Origin: Acaryochloris sp. IP29b_bin.176 | GTDB taxonomy: Bacteria > Cyanobacteriota > Cyanobacteriia > Thermosynechococcales > Thermosynechococcaceae | DNA: 32,762 nucleotides | Direction of reading: 5' to 3' | Assembly: GCA_028285315.1 (NCBI GenBank) | Contig: JANQPU010000352.1 | Location: 1 to 32,762 of the forward strand | Shown here: in pieces, positions 445 through 16,742 of the stretch | How positions within the stretch are numbered: the first letter of the stretch is position 1 | Layout of the letters: every line of letters begins with the position of its first letter | Translations under genes and position numbers: made by a program | The notes under the pieces: generated by a model | The model's input: only the letters and a program-made list of their open reading frames with translations | What the model was told of the DNA's origin: nothing | Databases searched by the model: none

Positions 445-2352
445 TCAACAGCATGCTGTATTTTTTAAAACCCTCGCAAGCATTCGAGCAAGAAGCTCCC
501 TATTATCTGCCATAATCAGACCTACCTCTGCTCCATTTATGCAAAGCTTGTCATCTGAACATTCTACTCTATAAATTTCACTATACCGAAGACACACTGG
601 AGGAGTAAGCATACCGGTTTTGAAGCATACACAATCTTTTAAAAGTAAGAACCCCCGACGAGCACCACCCCACATTGTATTATCATGTAATAAGAGAACT
701 TTTCCGCTTATTTTCCTATATTTATATATCCTCCATAGTTCACTTTTGTATGTGCTCAAAGCATTGTCCAGTTTATCTTTAGGTATGCTAGGAGATAAGT
801 AAACGCTGTCATCCTTAAATTGCCTCATAAGGCGCGTCAGATTTTGCCTAGTGAGTGTCTTTTTAGATGACTCTTCTTCGCTAAAGGCAGCATAGTTCTG
901 TGCTTGAGTTTTATGTTGTTTTTCTTTTAACCTGTCTTGAACTTTTGTTTTGTTTTTCAATACGTATGAAAGGCTTGAATTTATCTCTAAAGCCTGATTA
1001 TAACTTTCCAATGCTTCTTCTAGCATTTCTAACCTGAAGAGAACATTGCCTCGATTCGCATAGGCTTCTGCATAGCTTGGAGATAAGCTTATAACTTGAT
1101 TGAAGTCATCAAGAGCTTGCTCTAGCTTGCCCATTTTCAATAGAGCCAATCCACGATTGTATTTGGCTGGATAATAATCTGGATTTAGTGTCAATGCACG
1201 ATTGAATTTCAAAATTGCAGGAGAGAAATGACTCAATTTGGCTTCCTCTATTCCTTCCTTTAGATAACCCATGACTACATCTTCTTGAGAAGTCTCATGA
1301 TAGACGGCAGCGCCGTAAGATACTGCAAGCTCAGGATCAGTTACTCTTTCAACAGCACACCCAAAGGCTTTTTCTATCGATTCTTTGATATATGGAATCC
1401 GACAACTCCCTCCCACCATCAAGACTCGACTGATCTCCTCCCAGCTCAAGTTCGCGCTTTGTACTAGTTGGGTACAGAGATCCAGAGTTCTGGTTACAAA
1501 CGGCTCAATCATGCTTTCAAACTGTTGCCGAGTCAGGGCATAGGTTTCGGACATCCCCACGGGCAACAAATCCTCATATTCGGGCACTGCGCTGAGCTGG
1601 TGCTTAAAGCTCTGGCACCAATCTCCGATGATCAGCTTGGCTCGAATTGCAGCAACCTCCTGGTTGGTCGGTTCTAGAAGTTCTCGTAGCGCGTCACTGC
1701 AGCGGGACTTCAGATCAGCGTAGATTTGGCGATCAAAGTCAATCCCACCACACTGCTCATCACCTACGGGTTGTGCTAAAATCTGAAAACTGTCGCCCTG
1801 CTTCTGAATCAAGGCCGCGTCAAAGGTGCCGCCACCCAAGTCATAGACCAAGAGGATATCGCCCTCAGTAAGCCCTCCCTGTTTGTTGGCATAGTAGGTA
1901 GCAGCGGCCACTGGTTCTTCTAATAAGGTGACGGCTTCAAAGCCTGCTTGAGTAGCCACCTGCTTCATCAACTCCCGCTTATAGGCTTGATAGGTGGCCG
2001 GAACAGTAATAACTGCTTTTGACAAAGAATCGCGAGTCATCTGCTCTGCTTCAGTTTTGATGGTGCGGATCAGCTCTAGAATCAATTGCTCGGGCAAAAA
2101 TTCTTCCTCTCCCAGTACATAGGGGACGGAGCGGCCCAAATCGCGCTTAAACTCACGACGATATCGACCTGGATCAAGTCGATATTGATTCTCAGCAGCT
2201 TGCCCAACCACAATATTGCCCTGCTTGGTAAAAAAGGCGCTGGAGGGAAAAGAGTAGCCATGTTTCAATGGCTCTTTCACCGCTTGGAGTGTGCCATCTA
2301 ACATCAAGGCCGCGCTGGAATAGCAGGTACCAAAATCAATCCCGATTTGCAT
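445..2352 (-). CDS. Hsp70-like ATPase with TPR repeats and PH-like C-terminal domain
   Basis: The 635-aa protein begins with an actin/Hsp70 ATPase domain (residues 1-355). It has phosphate-1 IDFGTCYSS (5-13), K69 in FKRDLG, E146 in EEPVAAA, phosphate-2 DLGGGTFD (171-178) and the adenosine motif MVGGSCRIP (312-320). The usual Hsp70 substrate-binding domain is absent. Instead, about three TPR units follow (residues 375-465, e.g. ALDDFNQVISLSPSYAEAYA), then a linker and a C-terminal module (about 520-630) built around LLLHDNTMWGGARRGFLLL. That module recalls bacterial PH-like domains. ATPase residues are intact, so nucleotide cycling is likely. It is the last complete gene of the minus-strand cluster, separated from the next Hsp70 gene by a 550-nt gap, so it may have its own promoter. 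Family is sure; the PH-like assignment is tentative. Confidence 0.9.
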   Translation of the reverse strand: MQIGIDFGTCYSSAALMLDGTLQAVKEPLKHGYSFPSSAFFTKQGNIVVGQAAENQYRLDPGRYRREFKRDLGRSVPYVLGEEEFLPEQLILELIRTIKTEAEQMTRDSLSKAVITVPATYQAYKRELMKQVATQAGFEAVTLLEEPVAAATYYANKQGGLTEGDILLVYDLGGGTFDAALIQKQGDSFQILAQPVGDEQCGGIDFDRQIYADLKSRCSDALRELLEPTNQEVAAIRAKLIIGDWCQSFKHQLSAVPEYEDLLPVGMSETYALTRQQFESMIEPFVTRTLDLCTQLVQSANLSWEEISRVLMVGGSCRIPYIKESIEKAFGCAVERVTDPELAVSYGAAVYHETSQEDVVMGYLKEGIEEAKLSHFSPAILKFNRALTLNPDYYPAKYNRGLALLKMGKLEQALDDFNQVISLSPSYAEAYANRGNVLFRLEMLEEALESYNQALEINSSLSYVLKNKTKVQDRLKEKQHKTQAQNYAAFSEEESSKKTLTRQNLTRLMRQFKDDSVYLSPSIPKDKLDNALSTYKSELWRIYKYRKISGKVLLLHDNTMWGGARRGFLLLKDCVCFKTGMLTPPVCLRYSEIYRVECSDDKLCINGAEVGLIMADNRELLARMLARVLKNTACC

Positions 2353-2617
2353 TGCTGTTTTTCTATCCTAATTTACTCAATATAAATTCATACCTATCTT
2401 TCGCATACAAATGCCTAAAATTATCTCCAAATATCTCAATTGGGTATTGGGCAAATAATTTTAGCTAAGTTAAGTGACACTATGACTGTATCTGACACCT
2501 ATATGGCACAGAAGGCTATTCATTATCGTATTGAAACCGATTAAATATCCAATACTCCAGACACCTTTAGATCAAATAGCAGAATGAGGATTTCATGGTT
2601 TTAGCATTAGCGAAAAC

Positions 2618-2650
2618 TTAACCACTCTGGACTGCAAGTCCAGAGGTTAA
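2618..2650. repeat. Strong inverted repeat (14-bp stem, 3-nt loop)
   Basis: TTAACC (2618-2623) and TCTGGACT (2626-2633) pair with AGTCCAGA (2637-2644) and GGTTAA (2645-2650). This leaves a 2-nt bulge and a GCA loop. Such a stem would be very stable in RNA. There is no T-run directly after it on the plus strand. On the minus strand the following bases (TTTTCGCTAATGC) start with four T, so a terminator for the upstream leftward Hsp70 gene is possible, although it lies over 250 nt past that stop codon. Confidence 0.7.
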
Positions 2651-2697
2651 AGAAGGGACTGAGTCAACTTATCGATCTGATGTGATTTGAGAACCTC

Positions 2698-2745
2698 TAG
2701 CTGTTAGTGCTATAAATCTCTATTTTTAGAGGTGTGTAGCAGCTA
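2698..2745. repeat. Nested inverted repeat
   Basis: The outer arms TAGCTG (2698-2703) and CAGCTA (2740-2745) enclose an inner hairpin, CTCTA (2718-2722) with TAGAG (2727-2731) around a T4 loop. It lies 48 nt from the preceding stem-loop, so together they could form a structured leader or small RNA. Function is unknown. Confidence 0.5.
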
Positions 2746-2751
2746 AAGCCT

Positions 2752-2765
2752 TGCACTAAAGTGCA
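2752..2765. repeat. Short perfect inverted repeat TGCACT-AA-AGTGCA
   Basis: Six-base arms (2752-2757 and 2760-2765) flank two A residues. It follows directly on the nested repeat. It could be a dyad operator or just part of the structured gap; nothing else in the sequence decides this. Confidence 0.45.
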
Positions 2766-2903
2766 TAGTTTTGGACTAGCGTGTTTAGGATAATAAAGAG
2801 TTTTAAGTTCAGATTACAAAACCGTTTGGAGTGTTAATTTCAAAAGACCAAGAAATATATTATAGAACTCATATATTGACTAAAGTAAGAACAAGTATAG
2901 GAA

Positions 2904-4283: not shown

Positions 4284-4354
4284 GTTTGTCGCCCTAACTC
4301 ATTATCTAAATAGAGGTTTATATTCATGACCTACTTTCAATCGCTCGTGTAGTC

Positions 4355-5068
4355 TTAAAAAAACGAATCATCGCTAGTACCTGAAGCTTCATTCACCCAA
4401 CTTTCGTATTGCTCGGCCTGCTCCTGATATCCTGTCGCCTGCTCAGTGTGGTAAACAACTTGTTCAGCGGCTTCAGCGGCGGCGGCTGCGTCTCCCGCTT
4501 CAGCATAGTTTTCGGCATCAGCAGAGGAGCGATCAGCAGCTATTTCCTCCTCATATTGGGAGGTGCGATTGTCCATCGCCATATCGCTCCAGCGCATCTG
4601 ATCTTGCTCGTTACGGATTTCACGAGTGATTTCCTGTTGGTTGATGTAGGCGTTGTTCTGAATTTCCAGTTGTTCGATGTGCTGCTCTTTTTGATCCAGC
4701 TTGGCTTCGACATCAGCGATCCAGGCGTCATCCCCAGAAGAGTAGGCTGCTTCAATTTCAGCAATGTCTGCATTGAGCTGGACATTTTGCTCATGGAGCT
4801 GTGTGAAAAAGTCAGTGGTAGAGTCACTTGTGAGTGACGGCAAGCCCTGCTGGTTCCTGATATCGTTTAGCTCTTGCTGGGTCTCAGCCAAAATATGCTG
4901 AGTTTCATGGAGCAGGGCATCAGTGGAAGAGCTTTGCGTTAATACGTCATTTTCATCAACATCTAATTCATCACCAGTTAAGTTATCCAACAACTGGAAC
5001 TCCTGAGCCTCATCATATTCACATCCATTTTCTAGACTCAAGTCGTCAATGTAGTTTTCAATATCCAT
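4355..5068 (-). CDS. Acidic coiled-coil protein of unknown function
   Basis: The 237-aa protein is very rich in Glu, Asp, Gln and Ala and has one Cys and no signal peptide or membrane segment. Residues 1-45 are highly acidic (DELDVDENDV). Residues 50-150 show heptad-like helix (ETQHILAETQQELNDI; QKEQHIEQLEIQNNAY). Residues 175-225 form an Ala/Glu-rich helix containing AEAGDAAAAAEAAEQ. The start is supported by AGGA 8-9 nt upstream. It sits between two Hsp70-like genes on the same strand (71 nt before one, 181 nt after the other), which suggests a partner, scaffold or substrate of those ATPases. I recognise no family. It has no HPD motif, so it is not a J-domain protein. Confidence 0.8.
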   Translation of the reverse strand: MDIENYIDDLSLENGCEYDEAQEFQLLDNLTGDELDVDENDVLTQSSSTDALLHETQHILAETQQELNDIRNQQGLPSLTSDSTTDFFTQLHEQNVQLNADIAEIEAAYSSGDDAWIADVEAKLDQKEQHIEQLEIQNNAYINQQEITREIRNEQDQMRWSDMAMDNRTSQYEEEIAADRSSADAENYAEAGDAAAAAEAAEQVVYHTEQATGYQEQAEQYESWVNEASGTSDDSFF

Positions 5069-5249: not shown

Positions 5250-7061
5250 CTAAGGCTTAAAAATTCTCTGAATATGTTTCCTGGCAGGGCCAACTAAAGT
5301 TATTTGCAAATAAGGATTTCCAGATGAGGTAATTATCTTCATTGATTTCAAATCAATTACTGTTGGCAAAACCAGATAGCCCGAGGGCAGAAATCGATCC
5401 CTCCATTCTACTTTTAATCGATTAAAGCCTTGAGTAAAATCAGCATTGATCTCTGTAAATACGGCAATCGGGCAGCAGAAAGGAAGATTTTTCCAGAGAA
5501 GATTTGCACGGTTGAATTTTCTAGCCTCTTCATCAAAAAAACGAATACAGTTTTTGTAAAAATTCATGAAATCTTCACCCTCTCTTTCAGAGCTGATATT
5601 TGTTATAAAAAAAACAAAATTTGTATTTGCGGTTAAGATGGGCACATTACCATATGCAACCAGGTTAAAAGGTTGATTCATATAGGAAATATTTTCTTTG
5701 TGTTGAAGATTTTCTAATGCTAATTTTTGTATTACGTTAGATATATACTGGTCTAGATCCAGGTTTGTTTTTCGTTTTTGTGTATTTTGTTTGATTAGTT
5801 GAAAATGTTTGGGACTGCTTTGTTTTGAGTAGATGTCTTGCTCTGACGCGCTATCTTCATTAATCAGTTTTTCAGTTTTCTTCTCGAAGCTACTAGATGC
5901 AGTGGTTTGCTTTGGTTTGGATTGGCTCATAGCGGGCTGCTGCTTTATAGTCGCAGATATTGAACGTTTTTCGTCCAGCGTTTCCTGCTTTGATCCCTCA
6001 AAGAGGGTAGCTCCTAGGGCGACGGCTAACTCGGGATCATCAACGTTCACCACCGGGCGTTCAAATGTATCTTCCAGCACTGTCCTAACATCAGGAATAC
6101 GACAGCTCCCCCCTACCATTAGGATTCGATCTACTCTGTCCCAATCCAAACCCGCATTCTTAACCAGTTGCCAACACAGTTCACAGGTTTTATGCAAGAA
6201 AGGAGCAATCATTTTTGCAAAGCCGTCCTGGGTGAGGTGGTAGCTCTCGGACATCCCCACTGGCAGCAAGTCTTCATACTCATTCACTACGCTGAGCTGG
6301 TGCTTAAACTCGCGGCACCAATCCCCCACAATCAACTTGGCTCTCAGAGCCTCAGTATCTAGGCGCTGTGGATCCAGGAGGGCACGTAGCGTATCGCCAC
6401 ACTTGGCTCTTAAGTCTTGATAAATCTGGCGATCAAAATCTACTCCACCAAGCTGATCGTCGCCAATGGGTTGGGCCAGTAGCTCATATCCCTGTCTCTG
6501 CTTTTGAATAAGGGCCGCATCGAACGTACCTCCGCCTAGGTCGTAGACGAGCAAAATCTCCCCGTCCTTAAGGGATTGGCTGCCACTAACGAGATGGGCA
6601 TAATAAATTGCTGCCGCAACTGGCTCCATAAGTAATCTAACGTTTGTGAAGCCCGCTGCTTCTGCGGCCTGGGTCATTAGAGTTTGCTTGTGGCTTTGGT
6701 AGCTGGCAGGGATCGTTACTACGGTAGAAGTGAGCGGTTGATTGACCATTAGCTCCGCTTCTTTCTTGAGGGTGCGGAGTAGTTCATAGACTAGCTCTTC
6801 CGGTAGCATTTTATGTTCCCCTAAGCTATGGGGGGTGGAGGAACCCAACTCCCGCTTAAATTCGCGGCGATAGTGGGCCGGGTTCATCTTGCGTTGATTC
6901 TCCGCAGCTTGCCCCACAACAAGCTGTCCCTGTTTGGTAACAAATACGCTAGAGGGGAAAGAATAGCCCTGCTTTAGCGGTTCTTTGATGGGTTTGAGCG
7001 TCCCATCTAAAAACAGCGCTGCGCTGGTGTTACAGGTACCAAAATCAATTCCTAAATGCAT
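5250..7061 (-). CDS. Hsp70-like ATPase with unknown C-terminal domain
   Basis: The 603-aa protein carries the same ATPase domain as its two paralogues (residues 1-355): IDFGTCNTS (5-13), FKRELG (68-73), MEPVAAA (145-151), DLGGGTFD (174-181) and LMVGGSCRIP (314-323). A low-complexity linker rich in Lys, Ser and Gln (about 357-425) leads to a 175-residue C-terminal domain with features such as NLVAYGNVPI-like strands and FFITNISSEREGEDFMNFY, ending ARKHIQRIFKP. I cannot place that domain in a family, and it is not the Hsp70 substrate-binding domain. ATG at 7061 was chosen over a TTG two codons upstream. It has a purine-rich site (7068-7076) at 6-nt spacing and matches the paralogue starts. It follows the DUF1822 gene by 52 nt and is probably in the same operon. 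Confidence 0.9.
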   Translation of the reverse strand: MHLGIDFGTCNTSAALFLDGTLKPIKEPLKQGYSFPSSVFVTKQGQLVVGQAAENQRKMNPAHYRREFKRELGSSTPHSLGEHKMLPEELVYELLRTLKKEAELMVNQPLTSTVVTIPASYQSHKQTLMTQAAEAAGFTNVRLLMEPVAAAIYYAHLVSGSQSLKDGEILLVYDLGGGTFDAALIQKQRQGYELLAQPIGDDQLGGVDFDRQIYQDLRAKCGDTLRALLDPQRLDTEALRAKLIVGDWCREFKHQLSVVNEYEDLLPVGMSESYHLTQDGFAKMIAPFLHKTCELCWQLVKNAGLDWDRVDRILMVGGSCRIPDVRTVLEDTFERPVVNVDDPELAVALGATLFEGSKQETLDEKRSISATIKQQPAMSQSKPKQTTASSSFEKKTEKLINEDSASEQDIYSKQSSPKHFQLIKQNTQKRKTNLDLDQYISNVIQKLALENLQHKENISYMNQPFNLVAYGNVPILTANTNFVFFITNISSEREGEDFMNFYKNCIRFFDEEARKFNRANLLWKNLPFCCPIAVFTEINADFTQGFNRLKVEWRDRFLPSGYLVLPTVIDLKSMKIITSSGNPYLQITLVGPARKHIQRIFKP

Positions 7062-7067
7062 TCCCAA

Positions 7068-7113: not shown

Positions 7114-8280
7114 CTAAAAATACAAAATCTCCTGATCGTAGTCCTCTGCTAGGGGACTTGTTTGCCAAACCAAACCCTCCCCCGGTTCCATAACCACTTC
7201 AAGCCCCAACACCTCCGTAGGTAAAGATGCCGTAGCCACATTATTCTCAAAAGGTTGCAGATCTTCTGTTAGTAAAATTAGCTTCATTCCTTCAGGAATA
7301 GATCGACCTAGCCCAAGACTGTGTAGCTCCACTCGCCAATGATGTGTTTTTGTGGGGAGAGGGAAAATTCGTAGCTCATAGGCCAGCCCCGCAACAATGA
7401 GCTGCCGTAAAAGTATCTGACTAGAAGGTTGGGGATCATTGCCCCGCGCTCCTTCAGGCATCAACGGCAATGTAATTAGCTGCCAGCCCATATCTTGAAT
7501 AGCTTCTGGAAGCTGAGTACGTAGCCACTGACTGACGGATCCCAAAGAGGAAACACCTTGCCGCCGATCGCTTAACTGTTGCCGCCACCCACCATGCTGA
7601 ACCAACTGTCGCCACTGCTCGAAGGGAACGCTGAGCCTTGGCCAAATCACTGCTGGGTTTCCCAGGCGCGTCATCAGGTTTTGAGCCTGAGTCAGGGGCA
7701 TGGGAGCCGTTCCCACCTGAGTTTTCTGCGGGAGATCGCAGAACTGGCGGGTTAACCATAGTGCATTAAGATCCTGGGTGAGGGCTGAGATGTTCACCTC
7801 ATATTGTCGATCCTCAGACTCGTAGATACCGCAATCTTTGACCGTTTGATGGGCTGCAAACCCAATCACCTGTAGCCAGCCCGCATCACAGTTGAGGTTG
7901 GTCGCTAGGTAGTAATTGGCAATCCAGTTGGGGATGTCTATCCACTCTTGAGCAATATACATCCTGCCCCAGTCCAGCGTGTCTGACGGAACCAGCACCA
8001 GACGAAGATCACCAACGCTAATGCAGACGCCCTGCACCAGTTCACTGAAGCTGAGTACCGTACCAGGATGGGGCCAAACTTTTCCCTTCAAGTTGTGTTC
8101 CTCATTCAGCCAGGGCAAAAAAACATCAAGACATACAAGATTTAGATAGGCATTCCACCTTGCCCAAGGCGTCGCACAGGCTCGACTTTGAGACCATGCT
8201 TGCTCTCGGGTCGTGCTCTCAACTTCCAACCAAAGGTGTTTAGGGTCTGTGAGAAATGACATCGTTAAATCAGCTTTCAT
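7114..8280 (-). CDS. DUF1822 family protein
   Basis: The 388-aa protein matches the cyanobacterial DUF1822 family. The N-terminal part has the usual WLEVESTTREQAWSQS region and a WNAYLNLVCLDVFLPWL helix. The hallmark stretch is DIPNWIANYYLATNLNCDAG followed by WLQVIGFAAHQTVK. The C-terminal half holds ELRIFPLPTKTHHWRVEL. The molecular role of the family is not established. It is often found directly after a sigma-70-like gene, as here: its ATG at 8280 overlaps the end of the sigma gene by 11 nt, which implies translational coupling. The ATG at 8262 (MSFLTDPK) is an equally plausible start, since family members usually begin close to that point. There is no strong ribosome binding site for either. 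Family call is good; function unknown. Confidence 0.8.
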   Translation of the reverse strand: MKADLTMSFLTDPKHLWLEVESTTREQAWSQSRACATPWARWNAYLNLVCLDVFLPWLNEEHNLKGKVWPHPGTVLSFSELVQGVCISVGDLRLVLVPSDTLDWGRMYIAQEWIDIPNWIANYYLATNLNCDAGWLQVIGFAAHQTVKDCGIYESEDRQYEVNISALTQDLNALWLTRQFCDLPQKTQVGTAPMPLTQAQNLMTRLGNPAVIWPRLSVPFEQWRQLVQHGGWRQQLSDRRQGVSSLGSVSQWLRTQLPEAIQDMGWQLITLPLMPEGARGNDPQPSSQILLRQLIVAGLAYELRIFPLPTKTHHWRVELHSLGLGRSIPEGMKLILLTEDLQPFENNVATASLPTEVLGLEVVMEPGEGLVWQTSPLAEDYDQEILYF

Positions 8281-9499
8281 GGTTATTGACGGTTGGAATT
8301 GGTGACTCAGCCGACTGATAGAAGGTACGGAGCCATACTTCAAGATCATCACTGATAGTGTTTACTATGTCGGGCGTGATAGAAATATGCAGGTGCTCTT
8401 GACTCCACTGGATTAATGCTTGAATAAATTTCTTCCTGGCCCGGCTGAGATAGCGAGAAATCTGGAACTGCTTAAGCTGCCCTTGAGCTGCAATCTGCTG
8501 TTGGGTACGTCCTTCACCGTAGTAGAGCTTGAGGAGCTGTTGTCGGGTGGGATCTAAAGTTGCGATCTCCTCTGCCAACACAGCATAAACTGCCTGCTGC
8601 TGAACCGTTCGCTGCCCTTCTGCTTCCTGCTTGAGCAGGTTATCCAGCTCTGAGGTCGATTGTAACTGTGGTAAAACCTCACCTAGCTCCTGCGATTCAG
8701 GTTCCCCCAGCGGCATATGAATCGAGATCTGAGCTGGATTCAAGTAGGATCGCGCCCAGCTAGCGCAGCAGTTGAGCCAATCTTGCATCTCTGAGACTGT
8801 AGCGACTGCCCCCGGCCCATAGGGTTGTTGGTTGCGTTCTGTGTTGTAGAGATTAACGATGGCGGTCCAGGTCTCTCGATCGGGTTCCTTCAAGGCGCGA
8901 TTCGCCGTGGGGTGCGGTGGAATGTATAAAGCGTTAAAACAGCGCCAAGCCAGCAGATACATATTGGTCTTGGGAGACACAAATCCAGCCTGTTCAATCG
9001 CCTCAGTGAGCTGCTTGCGGCTAATTTTACGTAGCAAAGCCCAGTCGCTACAAAAATCAATCTCCTTGCTCTGGCGGAGCTGTTCCTTAATGATGGTGCT
9101 GTAGGCGGTCGCTGCGTAGGTACTCAGGTGATACCCCCGGCTAGGATCAAATCCTGCCAATACCTGAGGGGTTTTGGCGATCGCCAACTGAAAGCAGTCA
9201 GCTAAACCAAACTGTCCTTGAGAAAATTGCGATCTAAACCGTAGGGCTGCTCCATAGCAGGTTTCTTGCAAGTAAGCGGTCAGATGTTCAACAGCCAGAG
9301 GGTCGGATTTGTGTTGCCATTCCCCGTGCCAGAACAATGCCCAAAAATGGCTTGATATAGTCGTTCTATCAACTTGAGAAAGTTGGGCTTCCATGCTTCG
9401 CTTAAGCTCTGGAGCCATGACCCAACCTATATAATTACCGTCCTCGAATTGCATAAAGCTAGAAAATGTTTCAAGCAGCGTTTGGCGACTCTTCATCAT
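8270..9499 (-). CDS. Sigma-70-family RNA polymerase sigma factor (divergent)
   Basis: The 409-aa protein has a sigma region 2-like segment at about 70-145, including FGLADCFQLAIAKTPQVLAG and FDPSRGYHLSTYAATAYSTI, which corresponds to the core-binding and -10 recognition helices. A region 4-like segment at about 305-370 has LDPTRQQLLKLYYGEGRTQQ then IAAQGQLKQFQISRYLSRAR, a helix-turn-helix for -35 recognition. The middle segment is long and divergent, unlike primary sigma factors. It heads the minus-strand cluster that includes DUF1822 and three Hsp70-like genes, so it may direct transcription of this locus (inference). The start used is the first of two consecutive ATGs (9499/9496), with no clear ribosome binding site; ATG at 9454 (MQFEDGNY) is an alternative. 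Confidence 0.75.
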   Translation of the reverse strand: MMKSRQTLLETFSSFMQFEDGNYIGWVMAPELKRSMEAQLSQVDRTTISSHFWALFWHGEWQHKSDPLAVEHLTAYLQETCYGAALRFRSQFSQGQFGLADCFQLAIAKTPQVLAGFDPSRGYHLSTYAATAYSTIIKEQLRQSKEIDFCSDWALLRKISRKQLTEAIEQAGFVSPKTNMYLLAWRCFNALYIPPHPTANRALKEPDRETWTAIVNLYNTERNQQPYGPGAVATVSEMQDWLNCCASWARSYLNPAQISIHMPLGEPESQELGEVLPQLQSTSELDNLLKQEAEGQRTVQQQAVYAVLAEEIATLDPTRQQLLKLYYGEGRTQQQIAAQGQLKQFQISRYLSRARKKFIQALIQWSQEHLHISITPDIVNTISDDLEVWLRTFYQSAESPIPTVNNHES

Positions 9500-9656: not shown

Positions 9657-9928
9657 CTTTCGTATGAATAATAAGGAAGCGAACTATCCAGTACATCGTC
9701 TATCCCTGCAAAACCAGCTACCAGATTGAGTAAAACTGGTTTCACAAAACTGCAGCTACTAAAAATAGCATCCTAAGATCAATACTATTCAGATACGCCA
9801 AAGCCTCTAATTCAGGGGCTTTCAAACTCGCCATGTCAGTTGGCATGCTGAATTGGTCCCACCGCCTGCATAAACGGGGGGAGTGCGCCATATAGACCTA
9901 TTAAGGTTCCGTTCAAGGAGTAAACAGA
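9657..9928. promoter_or_regulatory. Divergent intergenic region with two hairpins
   Basis: This is the only region from which both the leftward sigma/DUF1822/Hsp70 cluster and the rightward peptidase/dynamin/GrpE cluster can be expressed, so it should hold both promoters. AAACCAG (9711-9717) pairs with CTGGTTT (9736-9742). AAAGCCTC (9800-9807) pairs with GGGGCTTT (9815-9822) with one G-T pair and a 7-nt loop. No canonical -35/-10 pair stands out on either strand, which would fit use of an alternative sigma factor. AAGGAG at 9915-9920 is the ribosome binding site for the peptidase gene. Confidence 0.5.
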
Positions 9929-11035
9929 ATGTTCAGCATGGACTGGCTAGATCTTGATGGAGATGGGGTAGAAGAAAGCTACGCCCAAGATATTGATACC
10001 GATGGTGATGGCCTTGCGGATACCACTCTAGTGCAATCAGATATGGATGGTGATGGCGTACTTGACAACACCTTTAGCGCCAACTTGGTTGACACCGATG
10101 GTGACGGCATTGCTGACATGGGGATTGTGGCCACCCCTTTTGAACTCGACCTGTCCCAGGATATCGATCAGTCCCCAACTGGGGATGACCTTGAACCAGA
10201 AATGGATCCCTTCCAGGATGATGACGACATTGAATTGGTAAACGAAGATCCAGGCTCAATTTATGAGGTGCCGGATGATCCCGAGGAGGACTTGGAGACA
10301 GAAATCGAAAACTTGTCTGACCCAGATCCAAGCGACGGGATGTTTGGTACACCTGATGAGGATATGGAGAACTGGCATCAGCAGATGCGTGACGATAGCT
10401 GCGCGATCGCATCCCAGGAATTTGTATTGGATGAAGTGCTCGGACGGGATGTGACCGAGCAGGAATTAACCGAAGTCGCCACCGCGAATGGTTGGTACAC
10501 CCCTGGTGGTGGTACTCCGTTGCATGCAACTGGCAATTTGCTAGAAGCCTATGGTGTCCCCGTGACCCAGGAATTTGGCAGTTCTCTGCAGGATATTGCC
10601 AACAAACTTGAACAGGGGCAAAAGGTCATTGTCGGTGTTGATGCTGATGAAATCTGGACACCGGGCGAGAACGAACTAGAAGACGATGTGCTGGGGGATT
10701 ACGTCGCTGGCTATGGGCATATTCCTGGCCAGGACGCGAACCATGCGGTGCAGGTGATCGGCATTGACACCACGGATCCAGATAATCCAATGGTTATCCT
10801 CAACGATCCAGGTACTGTTGACGGTCAAGGTTTCAGGGTGCCCGCAGGCGAGTTCGAGAATGCCTGGGCCGACAGCCAGCAATTTATGGTCAGCACCACT
10901 GGACTCACGCCTGATGCCACCGACCAGCCAGAATTCGCTGGAATGAGTGAAGTCCGTTTTGGTGCGGTTGATCGATATGGTCAACATTACTGGCCTAGCA
11001 GCGGTCAGTACTATACCCCCTCCAGATATGAATAA
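9929..11035 (+). CDS. Acidic C39-like cysteine peptidase with Ca-binding repeats
   Basis: The 368-aa protein begins with four DxDGDG repeats (DLDGDGVEES, DTDGDGLADT, DMDGDGVLDN, DTDGDGIADM; residues 8-64), typical calcium-binding loops. A very acidic stretch (about 72-150) follows. The C-terminal part resembles C39-type papain-fold peptidases: DDSCAIAS with the candidate nucleophile Cys158, NHAVQVIGID with His272, and VILNDPGT with Asp293. There is no signal peptide, so it probably acts in the cytoplasm, or it leaves by an unrecognised route. The start has a strong AAGGAG site 8 nt upstream. It is first in the rightward cluster, and the next gene begins 20 nt later. It may process or bind a partner encoded nearby; a non-peptidase binding role is possible. 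Confidence 0.75.
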   Translation: MFSMDWLDLDGDGVEESYAQDIDTDGDGLADTTLVQSDMDGDGVLDNTFSANLVDTDGDGIADMGIVATPFELDLSQDIDQSPTGDDLEPEMDPFQDDDDIELVNEDPGSIYEVPDDPEEDLETEIENLSDPDPSDGMFGTPDEDMENWHQQMRDDSCAIASQEFVLDEVLGRDVTEQELTEVATANGWYTPGGGTPLHATGNLLEAYGVPVTQEFGSSLQDIANKLEQGQKVIVGVDADEIWTPGENELEDDVLGDYVAGYGHIPGQDANHAVQVIGIDTTDPDNPMVILNDPGTVDGQGFRVPAGEFENAWADSQQFMVSTTGLTPDATDQPEFAGMSEVRFGAVDRYGQHYWPSSGQYYTPSRYE

Positions 11036-11055: not shown

Positions 11056-11589
11056 ATGGAAAGTGAAACTGCAAAACTGATCAAATTGGTGCGCGCCATG
11101 CCCCTGGCGCAACAGCTCATACCGATGGAAGCTCTGTCAGGTTGGCCCATGCCTTTACGCCGAGGGAGCAAGGTCTATGTCCATCTTCCCTTTATCGGTG
11201 CCAACCAAACAAAGGATAAAAGCGGTATGGCCCTGTTCCCACCCTTTGCCCTCGTCACCGTGGATTGGTCGAATGGCTTGCCTGTGCAATACCTCAATCT
11301 TCGATTCCAGCATCCTTGGCCAGAAGGATACTGGGACAACCAAGCGGGAACTTTTCCCCATCCAGAGATTGCCCAGCTCCCTAAAACTGAGTATGTCAGC
11401 AAGTGCCAAGAGCTACTGGCCATGTATGACCATCTTCTCAATTCGTTGGTGAAGCGCGAAGCTTTCACACCCGAGTGGAAAACACGATTTTCAGAGTCCC
11501 TGCGCCTCCTGATGGAACCTGGTCTCGAACCCTACTACCGTGCCCTCTCTCCTAAGTTTTTCCAGACTTTTCTACCCCAATCATCTTAA
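11056..11589 (+). CDS. Conserved-looking protein of unknown function (177 aa)
   Basis: I do not recognise this protein. It has no signal peptide or membrane segment. Proline- and tryptophan-containing stretches (MEALSGWPMPLRRGSKVYVH; LRFQHPWPEGYWDNQ) suggest a compact beta-rich N-terminal half. The C-terminal half (about 110-177) is helical, including YVSKCQELLAMYDHLLNSL and ending FFQTFLPQSS. It lies 20 nt after the peptidase-like gene and 22 nt before the first dynamin-like gene, so it is almost certainly co-transcribed and may be an accessory subunit of the system. Confidence 0.8.
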   Translation: MESETAKLIKLVRAMPLAQQLIPMEALSGWPMPLRRGSKVYVHLPFIGANQTKDKSGMALFPPFALVTVDWSNGLPVQYLNLRFQHPWPEGYWDNQAGTFPHPEIAQLPKTEYVSKCQELLAMYDHLLNSLVKREAFTPEWKTRFSESLRLLMEPGLEPYYRALSPKFFQTFLPQSS

Positions 11590-11600
11590 CCACAGTTTTA

Positions 11601-11605
11601 GAGGT
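11601..11605 (+). promoter_or_regulatory. Ribosome binding site fixing the first dynamin-like start
   Basis: GAGGT lies 6 nt before ATG 11612. The frame is open further upstream (to ATG 11540), but that would overlap the preceding gene by 50 nt and lacks such a site. Confidence 0.6.
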
Positions 11606-11611
11606 CTAATA

Positions 11612-13663
11612 ATGGCAAATTTTCAAGCAACCAAGCAAGAAACCCTCTCGCTCCTAAAATCTGCGATCAACTTTGCAAAGGCTAGCAGCCATAAGAATGC
11701 CGTCAAACGTCTCAATGACAGCCATCAGCATTTACTAGAGGGCAAGTTGTTCGTGGTCGTGGCAGGTGAATTTAAACAAGGCAAATCCAGTCTGATTAAT
11801 GCATTCCTACGTGAACCTGGTCTATTTCCTGTCGATGTAGACATCGCTACCAATCTCGTGTCTACGATTACCTATGGTGACGCTGAAAAAGTCACGGTTG
11901 TCCTAGGTGAGCCAGGGAAAGAGAAACGCAAGGAGATTCGCCGATCTGATATTCCAGATTATGTAACAGAACAGGGTAATCAAAGAAATAGTAAGCAGGC
12001 TCGCATGCTAGTCATGGAGTCCCCTAACGCTCAGTTAAAGGAGGGATTGATCCTTGTGGACACCCCCGGAGTTGGTGGACTAAACGTCCAACACACGGAT
12101 ATTACCTATGCTTACATTCCTAACGCTGATTCCATTCTGTTTGTTAGTGATGCTCATGCTCCCCTATCAACAGAAGAGCTTAATTTCATTAAGCGCATTA
12201 GCCAACATTGTCAGAATTTCATCTTTGTTGTCACCAAAATTGATGCTGTTAGCAACTATAAGTCAATTATTGATAGCAATCGAGAAAAGCTAGCTCAAGT
12301 CTTGCCAGAAACAGGTGATAAGTTTCCAATTATTCCGGTTTCAAGTAGTGCTAGCCTAGCCTATCTAGACACTCAAGATCCTGAAGATTTAGAGGATAGT
12401 AACTTATCTTCCCTTGAGCAAGAGCTATGGCAGCTTTTGAGTCAGCAGCGAGGCAAAATACTACTTCTGAGAGCACTGACTGAATTGGGCAGAGTGGTCG
12501 CTGATATTAGGACACCTTTACAAGCAGAATGGGAGGCTTGTCAACAGCATGATCGAGAAGACCAAACCAAACTGGAGTCCAAGTTACAAGACACGTCTGA
12601 AAGGTTAAAACAGCTTCAGGGTAACAGTTCTGCTTGGCAATATCAGTTGAATGAAGGCATTCAAGATACTCAAAAAGAACTATTTAGGGAGTTGAGCAGA
12701 GAGATTGAACAAATCAAACGCCGGTCACAAGATTATATGGAGGATAGTCGGTTTCTAGAAGACCCTCCTCAAATAGCAAGACTTTTGGAAACTGACTTCG
12801 ACTCAATGATGTCTACTCTCAGTGAGAAGCTGAGTCAGAAGGCTGGCAACCTACATGTTGAGATCGTCAATTCTACTGGATTGAATATGAATCCATTGGC
12901 AATTGATTCTTTAGATTGGAGAAATCTTGGAGAAGACTCTTCTGAAGTTAGAGAACTGGAAGGCTTATCTCAAGTCAAAGCTCCGCAAGCCGATTGGTGG
13001 ACTAAAGCTGTAGATATGGTCTACAAAGGGGGATTTAAAGCTACTGCTGGTACAACGGTTGGCACTCTTCTGGGAGGCACGCTTGGAGGAATAGCAGGAC
13101 TATTGTTTGGTGGAGCAGGTGCTGTACCTGGGGCACAGATTGGCATGGCCTTAGGTTCAGTCTTAGGAGGTGTGAAAGGCTTTAGTGATGGAGCGAAGGA
13201 TGCACTGAGTCAGATTCAGGAACGGAATCAGATATTAGCCAAACGAGAAATTTCAAAAATCATTAATCCCTATATAATCGACAACCAGTTACTGTGTAAA
13301 GCTGCTTTGGAGGATATGGTTACTAAGTTAAGCCGAACGATGCGGAATGATTTGCAGCAGCAAATTAAACGCGAGAGAGAGCTTTGCGATCGCAGTCTAC
13401 GTTCTTTCCAGAAAACCCTCAAGCTTTCACAGGAACAAATGATTCGCAAGATGGCCGAGTTAAAAGGCCCCTTGCAGCAGCTCACAGATTTCCAAAAGGC
13501 AGCAGAGAAATTAGCCATGCAAGCATTGGAGGAAGCTGAGTCTGATACTATCTCCCCCTCTGATCCAGCCGCGTCCTCCGCAGATGCCGCTTCATCAGAC
13601 TCGCCAACGACACCTCAACCTGTTGCTGCTAGTGCGGACTACGGAGATTGGGCAGATGGCTGA
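11612..13663 (+). CDS. Dynamin-like GTPase (first of pair)
   Basis: The 683-aa protein has a dynamin-type large GTPase domain: G1 GEFKQGKSS (52-60), G2 threonine in the DVDIATNLVSTITYG region, G3 LVDTPGVGG (148-156) and G4 TKID (208-211). A helical stalk follows (about 305-465, e.g. TKLESKLQDTSERLKQLQ), then a Gly-rich hydrophobic segment at about 474-527 (GTLLGGTLGGIAGLLFGG). This is likely the membrane-inserting tip or paddle, as in bacterial dynamin-like proteins. More coiled coil and a low-complexity Ala/Ser/Pro/Asp tail ending DYGDWADG complete it. The family binds, tubulates or fuses membranes by GTP-driven assembly. Its last 8 nt overlap the next GTPase gene, so the two are made together and probably work as a hetero-oligomer, as in other bacterial dynamin pairs. 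Confidence 0.9.
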   Translation: MANFQATKQETLSLLKSAINFAKASSHKNAVKRLNDSHQHLLEGKLFVVVAGEFKQGKSSLINAFLREPGLFPVDVDIATNLVSTITYGDAEKVTVVLGEPGKEKRKEIRRSDIPDYVTEQGNQRNSKQARMLVMESPNAQLKEGLILVDTPGVGGLNVQHTDITYAYIPNADSILFVSDAHAPLSTEELNFIKRISQHCQNFIFVVTKIDAVSNYKSIIDSNREKLAQVLPETGDKFPIIPVSSSASLAYLDTQDPEDLEDSNLSSLEQELWQLLSQQRGKILLLRALTELGRVVADIRTPLQAEWEACQQHDREDQTKLESKLQDTSERLKQLQGNSSAWQYQLNEGIQDTQKELFRELSREIEQIKRRSQDYMEDSRFLEDPPQIARLLETDFDSMMSTLSEKLSQKAGNLHVEIVNSTGLNMNPLAIDSLDWRNLGEDSSEVRELEGLSQVKAPQADWWTKAVDMVYKGGFKATAGTTVGTLLGGTLGGIAGLLFGGAGAVPGAQIGMALGSVLGGVKGFSDGAKDALSQIQERNQILAKREISKIINPYIIDNQLLCKAALEDMVTKLSRTMRNDLQQQIKRERELCDRSLRSFQKTLKLSQEQMIRKMAELKGPLQQLTDFQKAAEKLAMQALEEAESDTISPSDPAASSADAASSDSPTTPQPVAASADYGDWADG

Positions 13664-15227
13664 TTTGCCCCTACGCGATCGCGCTCAGGCTCTGTTTAAC
13701 TTTATTCTGGAGCAGACCCGAGATCGCGCATCCCTGCAGGACTTGCATCAAGAGCTGTTGAATTGCCAACAGCGGCTCTCGGAACCCATGCGGGTTGCCA
13801 TCGTTGGCAAAATCAAGGCTGGTAAGTCCACCATGCTCAACGCTTTGTTAGGGGAAGCGATCGTTGCCACGGGGACTGTTGAAGCCACCTTCAATATCAA
13901 CTGGCTCAAGTACGGCTCCCAACCCACGCTCAAGGTGCATTACAAAAACGGTAAATCTGAAGATAAGTCCTTTGAAGAGTTAACCACCCTCACGTTACGT
14001 GCTGATGAGCATCTGGACTACTTACTGAGTATCAAATACATCGAAGTTTTTTATCCCAGCTCGATTCTGAAAACGTTTCACCTTATTGACACCCCTGGCT
14101 TAGAGTCATTTTATGAGGATGACTCGCAAAACACCCGTGACTTTCTCAAACTGCATGGCCAAGACCTGACCGCCGCGACCCAAGCCGAAGCTGCTAATGC
14201 CGATGCAGTTTTATATCTGTTCAGCCATAACCTCAGTGCTGGTGATCAGGCTGTGATGGAGGAATTTCAGGGACCATCTGTAGGACGTGCGACTCCCATT
14301 AACTCTATTGGGGTCTTAACCCGGATAGATGCTTACTGGCCTGAGTTTCCGCCCATTGAAAGCGGTAACCGAATTGCTGCCCGCCTTTCCGATATCCCTC
14401 AGGTTCATAACCTGTTCTATGCCATTAAGCCCGTGAGTGGCTATCTCGCACTAGGAGCGCAGACCCTACAAACTGATGAGTTAGAAATTTTGCAAAAGTT
14501 GGCAGCACTTCCCGAAGACCGTTTGCAGAGTTTGCTTCGAGTAAGAAATCGGTTTGAGAATCGAGAGTACCCTGATCAGCCAGGAGTGCCGACCATTGCT
14601 GAACGCCAGAAAGTACTCCATCGCCTGGAGCGTTACGGCATTTGGCAAGCCTGTCAGTTAATACGCTCAGGAACTTGCAATCTTGAATCACTGACCCAAG
14701 AACTGATGCAGGCCAGTGGTGTCCCAGACCTGTGTGAATTAATTACGTCCCATTTCGGCCATCGTGCCTATCTCATTAAACTTCGCACCGCCATAGATAG
14801 ACTACATGCACTCTGTTTTCAGCAAAAACAGAAGCAATCTGACGATGATTTGCAGGTGGTGGAAGCGATCGCCGGAAAAGTCGAAGCCCTTGAAGCTAAT
14901 TCCCATGACTTCCGCGAACTAGATATTCTGCGGAGCTACTACGATCGCAAGCTGGAATTTAGTGACGCAGAGATTCATCAACTACTGGAGGTGACTGGTG
15001 AATACGGGCAATCTTGCTTCCAGCGCCTCGGTATGAAGGAGCAGGCTTCCATCGATCAAATGCTCTCTGCCGCAAAAGAACGCATGCAGAAGTGGCGGTT
15101 GCGGGCCGCTGATCAAATGGGAGCATCTCGGCCAACCATTGAAGCCTCTACCGTCTTAGCTCATTCCTATGAACGCATTGTCTATCACTTACAAGAGGCT
15201 CAAAAACATCTCAATTTTTGGTCGTGA
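13656..15227 (+). CDS. Dynamin-like GTPase (second of pair)
   Basis: The 523-aa protein has G1 VGKIKAGKSTMLNALLG (50-66), G3 LIDTPGLES (143-151) and G4 LTRID (221-225), a dynamin-family GTPase with Arg in place of the common Lys of G4. The C-terminal 250 residues are helical (stalk-like). They lack the long Gly-rich hydrophobic segment present in its partner, so membrane attachment may come from the partner. ATG 13656 overlaps the stop of the preceding gene by 8 nt (ATGGCTGA arrangement). A longer frame from 13584 would run 80 nt into the partner gene and is less likely. The GrpE-like gene starts 44 nt downstream. Confidence 0.88.
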   Translation: MADLPLRDRAQALFNFILEQTRDRASLQDLHQELLNCQQRLSEPMRVAIVGKIKAGKSTMLNALLGEAIVATGTVEATFNINWLKYGSQPTLKVHYKNGKSEDKSFEELTTLTLRADEHLDYLLSIKYIEVFYPSSILKTFHLIDTPGLESFYEDDSQNTRDFLKLHGQDLTAATQAEAANADAVLYLFSHNLSAGDQAVMEEFQGPSVGRATPINSIGVLTRIDAYWPEFPPIESGNRIAARLSDIPQVHNLFYAIKPVSGYLALGAQTLQTDELEILQKLAALPEDRLQSLLRVRNRFENREYPDQPGVPTIAERQKVLHRLERYGIWQACQLIRSGTCNLESLTQELMQASGVPDLCELITSHFGHRAYLIKLRTAIDRLHALCFQQKQKQSDDDLQVVEAIAGKVEALEANSHDFRELDILRSYYDRKLEFSDAEIHQLLEVTGEYGQSCFQRLGMKEQASIDQMLSAAKERMQKWRLRAADQMGASRPTIEASTVLAHSYERIVYHLQEAQKHLNFWS

Positions 15228-15271
15228 GTAAAATCTCACTATTCCATCTATTTTTTATCTAAGGAGATCCC

Positions 15272-15964
15272 ATGCTTAATTCGCTGCTCCGACTATTCAA
15301 ACCTAGGTCTACCTATCGGGACTTTAGACTGAATACAACAACACTGGCTCTTCGAGCAGAATCCCTCGCGCGTCAACTCAACCACTTACCCTCCACAACC
15401 CGAAAACCAGTTGATACAGATGTAGTCGTGGTACTCAAGTCCACTTGCTTACTCATGGAACGATTGCTTGAGGTAAGTCAGGATTCTGATACAGATTGGG
15501 ATGACGAAGATTCTTTTATACCTTGCACTACAGGTGATTTTGTCTCGCCTGCACAAGAGAGTATCGAGCTAGTCCACGAACCTAAATCGGCGATCGCTCA
15601 AAAAAAACCTTCAAGCATAGCCGTTACCCCTAAGCCAGAACCCTCTGACACCGCTATGGATCTGATCAAGCTCAGAGATTGGATTTTGCTAGCTCAGTCC
15701 AATTCAACAACACCTATAACAGAGATTCTTCCAGAAATTTACAAGAGACTCGGACAAACTTTAGAACTAGAAAACATAACACCATTAGAGATAACAGGGA
15801 AGTTCAATTATGAACAACAGCAAGTTGTAAACACACAAGTTACTTATGATCCAGAGCAAGAAGATACGATTTGTTCGACCGTTCGACCGGGTTATCTGTT
15901 TGAAGGTAAACTTATACGACCGCAGGAAGTAACTGTATACACTTATCTACCTACAGACCCCTAA
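15272..15964 (+). CDS. GrpE-like nucleotide exchange factor
   Basis: The 230-aa protein has a C-terminal segment (about 128-225) that follows the GrpE pattern. A helix with ILPEIYKRLGQTLELENITP comes first, then the beta-domain pattern LEITGKFNYEQQQVV (in place of the usual G..FDP..H.AV). An acidic loop and VRPGYLFEGKLIRPQEVTVY follow, matching the GY...ILRPA.V.V ending of GrpE. The N-terminal part (1-125) is not the normal GrpE coiled coil: it is shorter, basic at the start and has an acidic/Pro-rich linker (DTDWDDEDSF). GrpE proteins release ADP from Hsp70s, so the natural clients are the three Hsp70-like ATPases transcribed divergently. The start has AAGGAG at 15261-15266. It lies between the dynamin-like gene (44 nt) and an orphan gene (37 nt). 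Confidence 0.75.
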   Translation: MLNSLLRLFKPRSTYRDFRLNTTTLALRAESLARQLNHLPSTTRKPVDTDVVVVLKSTCLLMERLLEVSQDSDTDWDDEDSFIPCTTGDFVSPAQESIELVHEPKSAIAQKKPSSIAVTPKPEPSDTAMDLIKLRDWILLAQSNSTTPITEILPEIYKRLGQTLELENITPLEITGKFNYEQQQVVNTQVTYDPEQEDTICSTVRPGYLFEGKLIRPQEVTVYTYLPTDP

Positions 15965-16736: not shown

Positions 16737-16742
16737 TTATTG

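Follow-up and report, generated by a model that had tools for sequence, protein, structure and literature searches.

What brings three Hsp70-like ATPases without a substrate-binding domain (SBD), two dynamin-like GTPases, a C39-like peptidase and a GrpE-like protein together in one cyanobacterial locus? The window analysed here is the whole 32,762-nt stretch, and the block under study spans positions 100-15964 (Table 1). An ORF check of the window confirmed the ORF positions of the original prediction, which had placed the three ATPases on one strand and the other components on the opposite strand. Both arms were borne out, with Pfam HSP70 in all three minus-strand proteins and PF01025, two Dynamin_N domains, Peptidase_C39_2 and DxDGDG repeats in the proteins of the other arm. 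The divergent arms are separated by a 429-bp gap (9500-9928). The predicted overlap of the dynamin genes exists at a smaller size, in that the listed ORFs (11540-13663 and 13584-15227) share 80 bases, whereas homology-based starts (dynA 11612, dynB 13656) leave 8. Four genes of the block had been left out of that prediction, namely those of the 177-aa, 237-aa and DUF1822 proteins and a caspase-STAND gene that starts at 294 and runs left.

Table 1. Features of the block, with window positions and the match or observation that characterises each
Feature	Position	Strand	Evidence
Repeat at contig edge	1..98		Interrupts caspase-STAND gene
Caspase (C14)-nSTAND1-WD40 gene, first ~65 codons; remainder off contig	100..294	-	91% identity to G157
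Hsp70-3: NBD + TPR repeats + C-terminal part	445..2352	-	Pfam HSP70 6.6e-56, TPR_1 1.2e-22
Hsp70-2: NBD + C-terminal transmembrane segment	2904..4283	-	Pfam HSP70 1.5e-48
237-aa acidic protein, no assigned family	4355..5068	-	No Pfam match; 69% identical in G157
Hsp70-1: NBD + ~245-aa C-terminal region without known family	5250..7067	-	Pfam HSP70 2.4e-48
DUF1822 protein	7114..8352	-	Pfam 4.3e-82
Sigma-70/ECF-type sigma factor	8270..9499	-	Sigma70_r4 7.6e-7; NCBIfam sigma70-ECF 1e-22
Conserved leader directly 5' of C39 gene, in divergent control region	9865..9928	+	~64 bp kept in G157
C39-like papain-fold protein, N-terminal DxDGDG (Ca-type) repeats	9929..11035	+	Pfam Peptidase_C39_2 1.8e-7
177-aa core protein, new family	11056..11589	+	No Pfam, NCBIfam or PADLOC match
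dynA: IniA-type bacterial dynamin, conserved C-terminal W-A-D/E tail	11612..13663	+	Best PDB match IniA 6j72
dynB: second dynamin-like GTPase (IniC position)	13656..15227	+	Dynamin_N 3.6e-19
GrpE-like protein: GrpE C-terminal domain + helical N-terminus	15272..15964	+	Pfam GrpE 1.1e-9

Do these genes form one system? The block recurs as a single syntenic unit in G157, a cyanobacterium of another family, at 69-88% amino-acid identity and between unrelated flanks, and the arrangement is therefore more than chance. The GrpE-like gene closes the block that both genomes share, and the divergent spacer outside the leader aligns poorly. A core of NBD-type Hsp70, C39-like peptidase, 177-aa protein, IniA-like dynamin, second dynamin and, at some loci, GrpE-like protein is found in varied form across phyla, in other cyanobacteria, tubeworm gammaproteobacterial symbionts, a Thermomicrobiota MAG and actinobacteria. 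The 177-aa protein is co-inherited outside the actinobacteria, and the genes lie on one strand in the Phormidium and gammaproteobacterial symbiont loci. A search with dynB only found nine loci, eight of which were kept, with L031 and L035 being short contigs. All eight have dynA within 3.5 kb, directly adjoining dynB in seven, and Hsp70 was seen in six, the 177-aa protein in six, C39 in five and the GrpE-like gene in four. The scan of genome contigs relied on just two short peptide patterns from dynB and thus finds members and gives no prevalence. An Acidobacteria locus (L037) was dropped on account of a match of 28 residues only, and one locus (L032) keeps the dynamins with an Hsp70 shrunk to a 15-residue remnant.

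The linkage extends to plasmids. All 27 system-type C39 records in the plasmid collection (12 Prescottella, 14 Rhodococcus and one Anabaena, redundant and thus of few independent lineages) lie within 12 kb of both Hsp70 and dynA. At the same distance, a system-like Hsp70 accompanies 33 of 40 plasmid dynA records (40 of 41 records; one of the 33 Hsp70s is the Nocardia farcinica DnaK) and a listed dynA accompanies 33 of 40 system-like Hsp70 records (all 38 of one search and two of another), with seven unaccompanied in each case. As a control, 30 cyanobacterial genomes, 19 with a dynamin, were examined for dynamin places other than these; 0/33 fall within 12 kb of an Hsp70 and one dynamin is 22 kb away from one, although some control contigs are short enough for a neighbouring Hsp70 to escape notice. 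Divergence in one part is matched by divergence in the others (Mantel r 0.93-0.98 for 8-11 loci, some near-identical). The G157 synteny, the multi-phylum core, the plasmid C39 linkage and the control dynamins uphold the prediction of one system. Linkage of Hsp70 with the dynamin pair is conserved in other genomes; the expected GrpE-like gene also recurs, but only in part of the loci.

Among 388 cyanobacterial genomes, dynA (E<=1e-20) and the 177-aa protein (E<=1e-6) were each found in two. C39 (E<=1e-8) was found in nine and co-occurs more loosely: two of the nine hold the system, two (L083, L084) have C39 among other dynamins with no Hsp70 in view, four (L085-L088) have no dynamin in the stretch examined and one (G138) has two partial C39 matches. 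A single-sequence query gave no match in viral contigs, and the phage collection gave one partial match.

By sequence similarity, dynA is an IniA-type dynamin. Its match to IniA 6j72 (E 1.2e-34, next PDB match 9.5e-13) covers residues 20-616 and thus most of its length, unlike the matches of other dynamins of the source genome, two of which resemble the bacterial dynamin 2j68 (6.5e-198 and 7.9e-296) and reach just 1.7e-8 and 3.6e-8 with IniA. The gammaproteobacterial dynA likewise matches IniA (9.4e-34). Dynamin_N scores 7.8e-25 in the dynA ORF, and the best PDB match of dynB is 5owv_C (5.3e-14), which we take to be a Campylobacter DLP. Pattern matching, rather than placement on a structure, found GxxxxGKS, DTPG and a [TNS][KR]xD string in 13/13 dynA and 12/12 dynB proteins listed, and the window dynB has a P-loop, DTPG and a T[KR]xD string. 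The W-A-D/E tail of dynA, which sits on a variable linker, is present in 9/9 non-actinobacterial dynA proteins listed. IniA cuts membranes in vitro, according to the available parts of PMC6715688.

The Hsp70s depart from canonical chaperones. The ATPase domain is present in all three; the best HSP70 stretch ends at residues 351-355, corresponding to model positions 370-371 of 599, and the substrate-binding part is therefore unmatched. They had been described as NBD-only, which holds for the missing SBD (Pfam) but not for a bare NBD, as they carry TPR, transmembrane (TM) or novel C-terminal modules. The ATP-site motifs of Hsp70-1 align with those of DnaK, and its C-terminal ~245 aa match no Pfam family above its cut-off. 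Hsp70-2 has a hydrophobic segment at residues 433-451, its G157 homologue has one too, and residues 505-600 of Hsp70-3 match PADLOC BnzA (1.1e-7). Across loci, the C-terminal modules include membrane anchors (TM segments in the Rhodococcus erythropolis and Prescottella equi Hsp70s also), TPR, a beta-helix and domains without known family, and Hsp70 ATPase domains are thus seen reused with swappable modules. In a tree, a branch with 97/92 support separates the system NBDs from DnaK; the L036 Hsp70 was entered with a wrongly long N-terminus that may inflate its branch, and the incomplete L035 Hsp70 was omitted. In N. farcinica, the dynamin-linked Hsp70 belongs with canonical DnaK and a GrpE-type gene follows it; this locus was dropped as evidence. 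NCBIfam scores HscA slightly over DnaK for the system NBDs; HscA is not known to need GrpE. Taken as sequences, the IniA-type dynamin and the second dynamin are paired and co-inherited with SBD-less Hsp70s and the C39-like protein.

The remaining proteins are less uniform. Putative Cys, His and Asp residues of the C39-like protein, which we presume to be catalytic, are kept in 8/9 homologues, and one (L033a) lacks Cys and His. The window protein is stand-alone, with no ABC domain (Pfam) and no TM segment, unlike the C39 of ABC-exporter-fused bacteriocin systems. Homologues of the 177-aa protein are 42-57% identical, and its AlphaFold2 model (mean pLDDT 75) gave no PDB fold match at E<=0.001. 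PF01025 covers the C-terminal part of the GrpE-like protein, the domain by which GrpE touches Hsp70, at model positions 83-163 of 165, above the gathering score, as also in L036, and the GrpE-like profile matches the GrpE structure 4ani (2.4e-5); the AlphaFold2 model predicts helices at low confidence (pLDDT 51) and was dropped as evidence. Three of seven GrpE-like proteins have an N-terminal TM segment, and GrpE may thus be a membrane-anchored exchange factor. The Anabaena, Dolichospermum, gammaproteobacterial and P. equi loci showed no GrpE-like gene, a whole-genome Pfam search of two gammaproteobacterial genomes found one full-length GrpE each and no other, and the R. erythropolis GrpE-like query matched nine Rhodococcus plasmid records only. 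GrpE is therefore not obligatory.

Is the sigma factor dedicated to this system, as had been claimed? The sigma and DUF1822 genes lie inside the block conserved with G157, but DUF1822 is found in 20/30 cyanobacterial genomes, and the profiles of the pair have no match in the Phormidium or gammaproteobacterial loci (L030, L032-L034 and upstream of L030). ECF sigma, DUF1822 and caspase together are moreover a published conflict theme (available text of PMC8195603). We therefore reject the idea that a dedicated sigma factor belongs to the core, and the pair is accessory. The ECF sigma gene found in actinobacterial loci belongs to a different subfamily.

How does the set relate to described systems? 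A 2018 review (PMC5827413) describes cyanobacterial dynamins of a 'chaperone' clade that have a gene with a DnaK domain downstream, a likeness that counts against the original claim of no described system with exactly this set; for the full gene set, no description was found in the literature among the matches listed. The accessible part of that review, compared by description only, makes no mention of SBD loss, GrpE, C39, the 177-aa protein or other phyla. Campylobacter Cj-DLP1/2 and other bacterial pairs likewise have side-by-side dynamin genes, with no Hsp70, GrpE or C39 partner named in the parts of PMC6104087 at hand. The mycobacterial iniBAC locus shares paired dynamins and the IniA resemblance of dynA, and in P. 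equi a Gly-rich protein, IniB-like in our reading, precedes dynA. Unlike iniBAC with its IniA/IniC pair and signal-transduction ATPase IniR, the present system has SBD-less Hsp70s that are separate from DnaK in the tree, and C39-like, GrpE-like and 177-aa proteins, and no IniR was seen. The DO-GTPase GAP1-N2 conflict systems include HSP70, GrpE and HSP70 without the peptide-binding domain, as far as the text available goes (PMC7159879), but they use DO-GTPases, not dynamins, and the word 'dynamin' occurs 0 times in that paper. A Pfam scan found no DO-GTPase among the window proteins scanned; the Anabaena plasmid locus has two DO-GTPase-type genes, one above and one below the Pfam cut-off, and a CHAT-STAND protein. 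EACC2/caspase systems are resembled by the sigma, DUF1822 and caspase genes of one G157 neighbourhood, and differ in that an Hsp70-dynamin core is joined here (PMC8195603, in part).

We propose, with a probability of about one half, a mobile membrane-remodelling module that responds to stress or invaders and whose IniA/IniC-type dynamin pair is gated by NBD-Hsp70s together with GrpE. The data suggest a rare transferable set whose chaperone switch may control membrane remodelling. The NBDs would act as ATP/ADP-switched adaptors rather than unfolding chaperones, with the variable C-terminal modules taking input from the membrane or partner proteins. At the membrane, to which it is anchored in some loci, GrpE would swap the Hsp70 nucleotide. 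Depending on the ATP state, the dynA/dynB heteromer would remain soluble or would assemble on the membrane and cut it. The conserved W-A-D tail of dynA is a possible docking site, and the C39-like peptidase may arm the system by trimming or freeing a component. Sigma/DUF1822 would add an expression layer, and caspase-STAND a cell-death layer, in the window/G157 subtype.

A tentative but credible alternative is immunity or programmed cell death. Invasion would be sensed by the STAND, caspase and GTPase neighbours, the Hsp70 NBDs would serve as sensors or assembly scaffolds, and the dynamins would act on the membrane as effectors whose assembly the Hsp70s do not directly control. This alternative draws on the caspase-nSTAND1 gene adjoining the block in G157, the CHAT-STAND and DO-GTPase-type genes of the Anabaena plasmid and the conflict themes of PMC8195603 and PMC7159879. 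The caspase-STAND gene is interrupted here, however, and its profile has no match in the other loci examined. The dynA protein matches PADLOC LeoA (7.5e-32), and LeoA/LeoBC presumably represents the Eleos defence system, but LeoA is also matched by three further dynamins from this genome (1e-12 to 1e-19), and this generic similarity was dropped as a sign of defence.

Unlikely, yet worth weighing, is ini-like envelope-stress repair, in which the pair reseals or prunes damaged membrane and the Hsp70s, GrpE and peptidase are quality-control helpers with no immune role. The IniA-like length of dynA fits, as do the induction of iniBAC by cell-wall drugs and the dnaK-like gene directly downstream of iniR in Mycobacterium smegmatis (PMC5760070, parts seen), the actinobacterial ECF sigma genes and the membrane-anchored Hsp70s and GrpE-like proteins of some loci. 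The sparse, patchy and partly plasmid-borne spread (2/388 genomes) is unlike housekeeping repair, and conflict-type neighbours (caspase-nSTAND1, CHAT-STAND, DO-GTPase) at some loci also speak against it.

The original prediction had the Hsp70s bind and dismantle a dynamin coat, as Hsc70 does with clathrin, and GrpE reset them. The linkage of Hsp70, GrpE-like and dynamin genes agrees with this, and the conserved dynA tail loosely resembles the C-terminal tail that clathrin has. The Hsc70-clathrin mechanism requires an Hsp70 SBD and a J-domain cochaperone, but a Pfam scan of 19 window proteins matched neither; uncoating of this style is therefore improbable and that claim is unsupported. Two unrelated islands abutting by chance, as the divergent arms and a right flank unlike that of G157 might suggest, are ruled out for practical purposes by the G157 synteny, the one-strand loci of Phormidium and the gammaproteobacterial symbionts and the plasmid co-location.

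The proposed chaperone-gated module could be taken further. A rather doubtful extension is a new class of conflict system in which a GrpE-reset, SBD-free Hsp70 timer, with exchangeable C-terminal sensors, licenses the C39-armed IniA/IniC-type pair to sever or permeabilise its own or an invader-modified membrane. If so, iniBAC might be a reduced derivative of such a system. To our knowledge, few regulators of bacterial dynamins have been described, and a chaperone-gated dynamin would be the first in bacteria. A co-inherited Hsp70, partly with GrpE, would provide a concrete, testable regulator and would make the mycobacterial iniBAC dynamins, which are induced by drugs, part of a wider mobile family in which more complete relatives point to candidate partners.

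The left end of the block leads into the caspase-nSTAND1 gene, which the repeat breaks in this genome. The stretch encoded here is 91% identical to residues 1-67 of a 1660-aa G157 protein, the first 985 aa of which match nSTAND1 (3.2e-118) and Peptidase_C14 (1.5e-9) in Pfam; the WD40 label comes from reading its repeats. Similarity to G157 ends near base 100, and the repeat itself recurs in the same genome: contigs C20 and C200 each begin with an identical copy, C234 has one at 90%, and 44 bases of it are found in C340.

The window forms the 32.8-kb start of contig C321, which belongs to a draft cyanobacterial genome (5.35 Mb, 87% complete). ORF calling and a Pfam scan agree with the gene set of the original prediction, namely three Hsp70s without a substrate-binding domain (SBD), a GrpE-like protein, a dynamin pair and a C39-like protein, arranged in two divergent arms.

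Features of the module, each arm listed from the spacer outward
Feature	Position	Strand	Remark
Divergent spacer	9500-9928		between the arms
Sigma factor		minus	
DUF1822 protein		minus	
Hsp70-1	5250-7067	minus	
237-aa acidic protein		minus	
Hsp70-2	2904-4283	minus	
Hsp70-3	445-2352	minus	
Further gene	starts at 294	minus	
C39-like protein	9929-11035	plus	DxDGDG repeats
177-aa protein	11056-11589	plus	no family
dynA	11612-13663	plus	IniA-type dynamin
dynB	13656-15227	plus	second dynamin
GrpE-like protein	15272-15964	plus	

Do the two arms constitute one unit? Across 388 genomes of the class, dynA (E≤1e-20) and the 177-aa family (E≤1e-6) were found in the same two genomes and the Hsp70 ATPase domain (NBD; E≤1e-50) in three, and six genomes of the same genus gave no match at these thresholds. 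The second genome with dynA and the 177-aa protein, G157, comes from another family and shows conserved gene order and relative orientation for all 11 genes (69-88% identity), with no ORF match between its flanks and those of the window. Such synteny between unmatched flanks upholds the proposal that the Hsp70, GrpE-like and dynamin arms belong together. DNA similarity to G157 extends in pieces from base 100 to 15941; because it stops there, we place the right border where the GrpE-like gene ends and regard the genes from 16002 onward as something else. In the spacer, the approximately 64 bp directly before the C39 gene show conservation, and the remainder aligns poorly. Beyond the module, positions 16731-32538 encode a response regulator, CHASE2, Ser/Thr kinase, DUF928 and CHAT-TPR proteins and a TPS-secreted protein with its ShlB-type transporter, none with a counterpart in the G157 stretch compared.

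In G157, the operon matching the minus-strand arm goes on to encode a 1660-aa protein that combines caspase (Peptidase_C14) and nSTAND1 domains with, by our own reading, apparent C-terminal WD40-type repeats. The window holds just the first codons of this gene (91% identity to residues 1-67), which break off into a repeat that also starts contigs C20 and C200; the gene is thus interrupted or unassembled here. The repeat (1-98), common to four other contigs of the genome, is probably a mobile element edge. A few kilobases past the G157 caspase-STAND gene lie a PIN-domain-like toxin/antitoxin-like pair and a tyrosine recombinase-like gene, as read from sequence (G157:C2 603162-605135; L020 18163-20000, L021 1-136). 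In another fetched locus (L085 9498-15198), a 1223-aa protein that fits the caspase-STAND profile is encoded ~1.2 kb from a C39-like gene, with no dynamin in that stretch.

A dynB alignment of three sequences, searched through two short peptide patterns, returned nine loci from 84,980 species genomes; one locus (L037) was dropped as a match of 28 residues. In the eight loci kept, two of them short contigs (L031, L035), dynA lies within 3.5 kb in all eight, Hsp70 was seen in six, and the 177-aa protein, C39 and GrpE-like genes occur in six, five and four, respectively. Gene order is Hsp70-C39-177aa-dynA-dynB-GrpE on one strand in Phormidium LEGE 05292, Hsp70-C39-C39-177aa-dynA-dynB in two tubeworm symbionts and 177aa-dynA-dynB-GrpE-Hsp70 in a Sphaerobacteraceae MAG (Thermomicrobiota). 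On plasmid pANA01 of Anabaena sp. 90, Hsp70, C39, the 177-aa protein and both dynamins are present, with identities of 47-56%. A search for a GrpE-like gene found none in the loci of Anabaena, Dolichospermum, P. equi and the gammaproteobacteria. In an Escarpia symbiont (L032 5406-6215), the Hsp70 gene is cut to its first 15 codons and fused to the C39-like gene, either a real deletion or an assembly error.

Actinobacterial versions are diverged: R. erythropolis has C39, ECF sigma, dynA, GrpE-like (N-terminal TM), dynB and two Hsp70s with TM segments, and Actinomycetospora has ECF sigma, dynB, GrpE-like, dynA and Hsp70, with no C39 in view. In the plasmid collection, whose records represent few lineages, all 27 system-type C39 genes lie within 12 kb of both Hsp70 and dynA. 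A system-like Hsp70 lies within 12 kb of 33 of the 40 plasmid dynA records listed, one being a canonical DnaK (N. farcinica), and a listed dynA lies equally close to 33/40 Hsp70 records. In Nocardia farcinica (L026 9965-16164), the system-type dynamin pair adjoins this canonical DnaK gene, after which comes a GrpE-type gene.

Among 35 dynamin places in 30 genomes of the class, just the window's two fall within 12 kb of an Hsp70; one other lies at 22 kb. Pairwise identities of dynA, dynB, Hsp70 and C39 correlate (r 0.93-0.98, Mantel p 0.0002-0.0012; 8-11 loci), as expected if the parts were inherited together, a result we treat as supportive only because some loci are near-identical. In an unrooted NBD tree of 27 sequences, a branch with support 97/92 divides the system NBDs (from cyanobacteria, gammaproteobacteria and, except for N. 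farcinica, actinobacteria) from DnaK and the remaining Hsp70s; their status as a clade depends on the root. The lone Hsp70 of genome G304 falls among them; the gene of this stand-alone 409-aa NBD-type protein sits at the start of a separate contig, beside those of two similar small proteins that look YbjN-like (L022 164-2317 for the group).

Hsp70 homology ends after the NBD in all three window Hsp70s, and Hsp70-1 keeps its ATP-site motifs. The downstream parts differ, comprising TPR plus a further part, a TM segment and a region of no known family; Phormidium has a 1006-aa TPR version and gammaproteobacteria a 1068-aa beta-helix version. Similarity of the GrpE-like proteins to GrpE covers its C-terminal part, and an N-terminal TM is present in three of the seven. 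At the position of R183, which with V192 we take to be an E. coli GrpE contact to DnaK, our alignment reads R or K in five cyanobacterial and Thermomicrobiota rows and neither in two actinobacterial rows; the same five are hydrophobic at the V192 position. DynA, including the gammaproteobacterial protein, resembles IniA along most of its sequence, and two other dynamins of the window's genome are close to bacterial dynamin 2j68. After a poorly conserved linker, dynA ends in a W-A-D/E tail in 9/9 non-actinobacterial proteins listed and in none of the four actinobacterial ones.

Eight of nine proteins preserve the putative C39 triad. The exception, first of the tandem pair in a tubeworm symbiont (L033 5250-7270), lacks the catalytic Cys and His and is likely an inactive twin of the intact copy beside it. 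Phormidium has a second, 578-aa C39-like gene upstream of its locus (L070 11858-13594). In genomes G365 and G304 (L083 576-7949, L084 7235-14415), a C39-like gene sits among three large dynamin-like GTPases on one strand, with no Hsp70 in the fetched stretches; given these other dynamins, the C39-dynamin link may predate the Hsp70 link.

What could such a gene set do? The sequences show domain content and linkage; for function, our favored inference is a chaperone-gated dynamin. The NBD-Hsp70s would serve as ATP-dependent adaptors, with GrpE, where present, exchanging their nucleotide on or close to the membrane; the dynA/dynB pair would be the machine acting on the membrane, and the C39-like peptidase would arm the system. 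There are two candidate outputs. An immune-type action would fit the STAND, caspase, CHAT and DO-GTPase neighbors and the patchy, partly plasmid-borne distribution. Envelope repair would fit the kinship of dynA to IniA, for which membrane fission is described (PMC6715688), and the drug induction of iniBAC (PMC5760070). A literal reading of the suggested parallel to Hsc70 stripping of clathrin is disfavored, since such uncoating requires an SBD and a J-protein.

Related arrangements have been published. They include cyanobacterial dynamins of a 'chaperone' clade in which a DnaK-domain gene lies downstream (2018 review, PMC5827413), ECF sigma-DUF1822-caspase neighborhoods (PMC8195603) and DO-GTPase systems that contain HSP70, GrpE and an HSP70 without a peptide-binding domain (PMC7159879), which, unlike the window system, are described there without dynamins. 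In M. smegmatis, iniR is immediately followed by a dnaK-like gene (PMC5760070). Among the matches listed by searches of openly available main texts, none described the Hsp70/GrpE/C39/dynamin set. Given these related systems and this scope, we regard the set as a variant of described arrangements, not as a category of its own. The pANA01 locus also carries DUF1822, a CHAT-STAND protein and DO-GTPase-type genes (L025 10734-12854), a system nearly absent from cyanobacteria according to its defining paper (PMC7159879). Four Anabaena/Dolichospermum locus proteins, the Hsp70, two unknowns and the DO-GTPase-type GTPase, share (D/N/E)WF at the extreme C-terminus (L025 8202-14286; L029 216-6312), perhaps a common docking tag.
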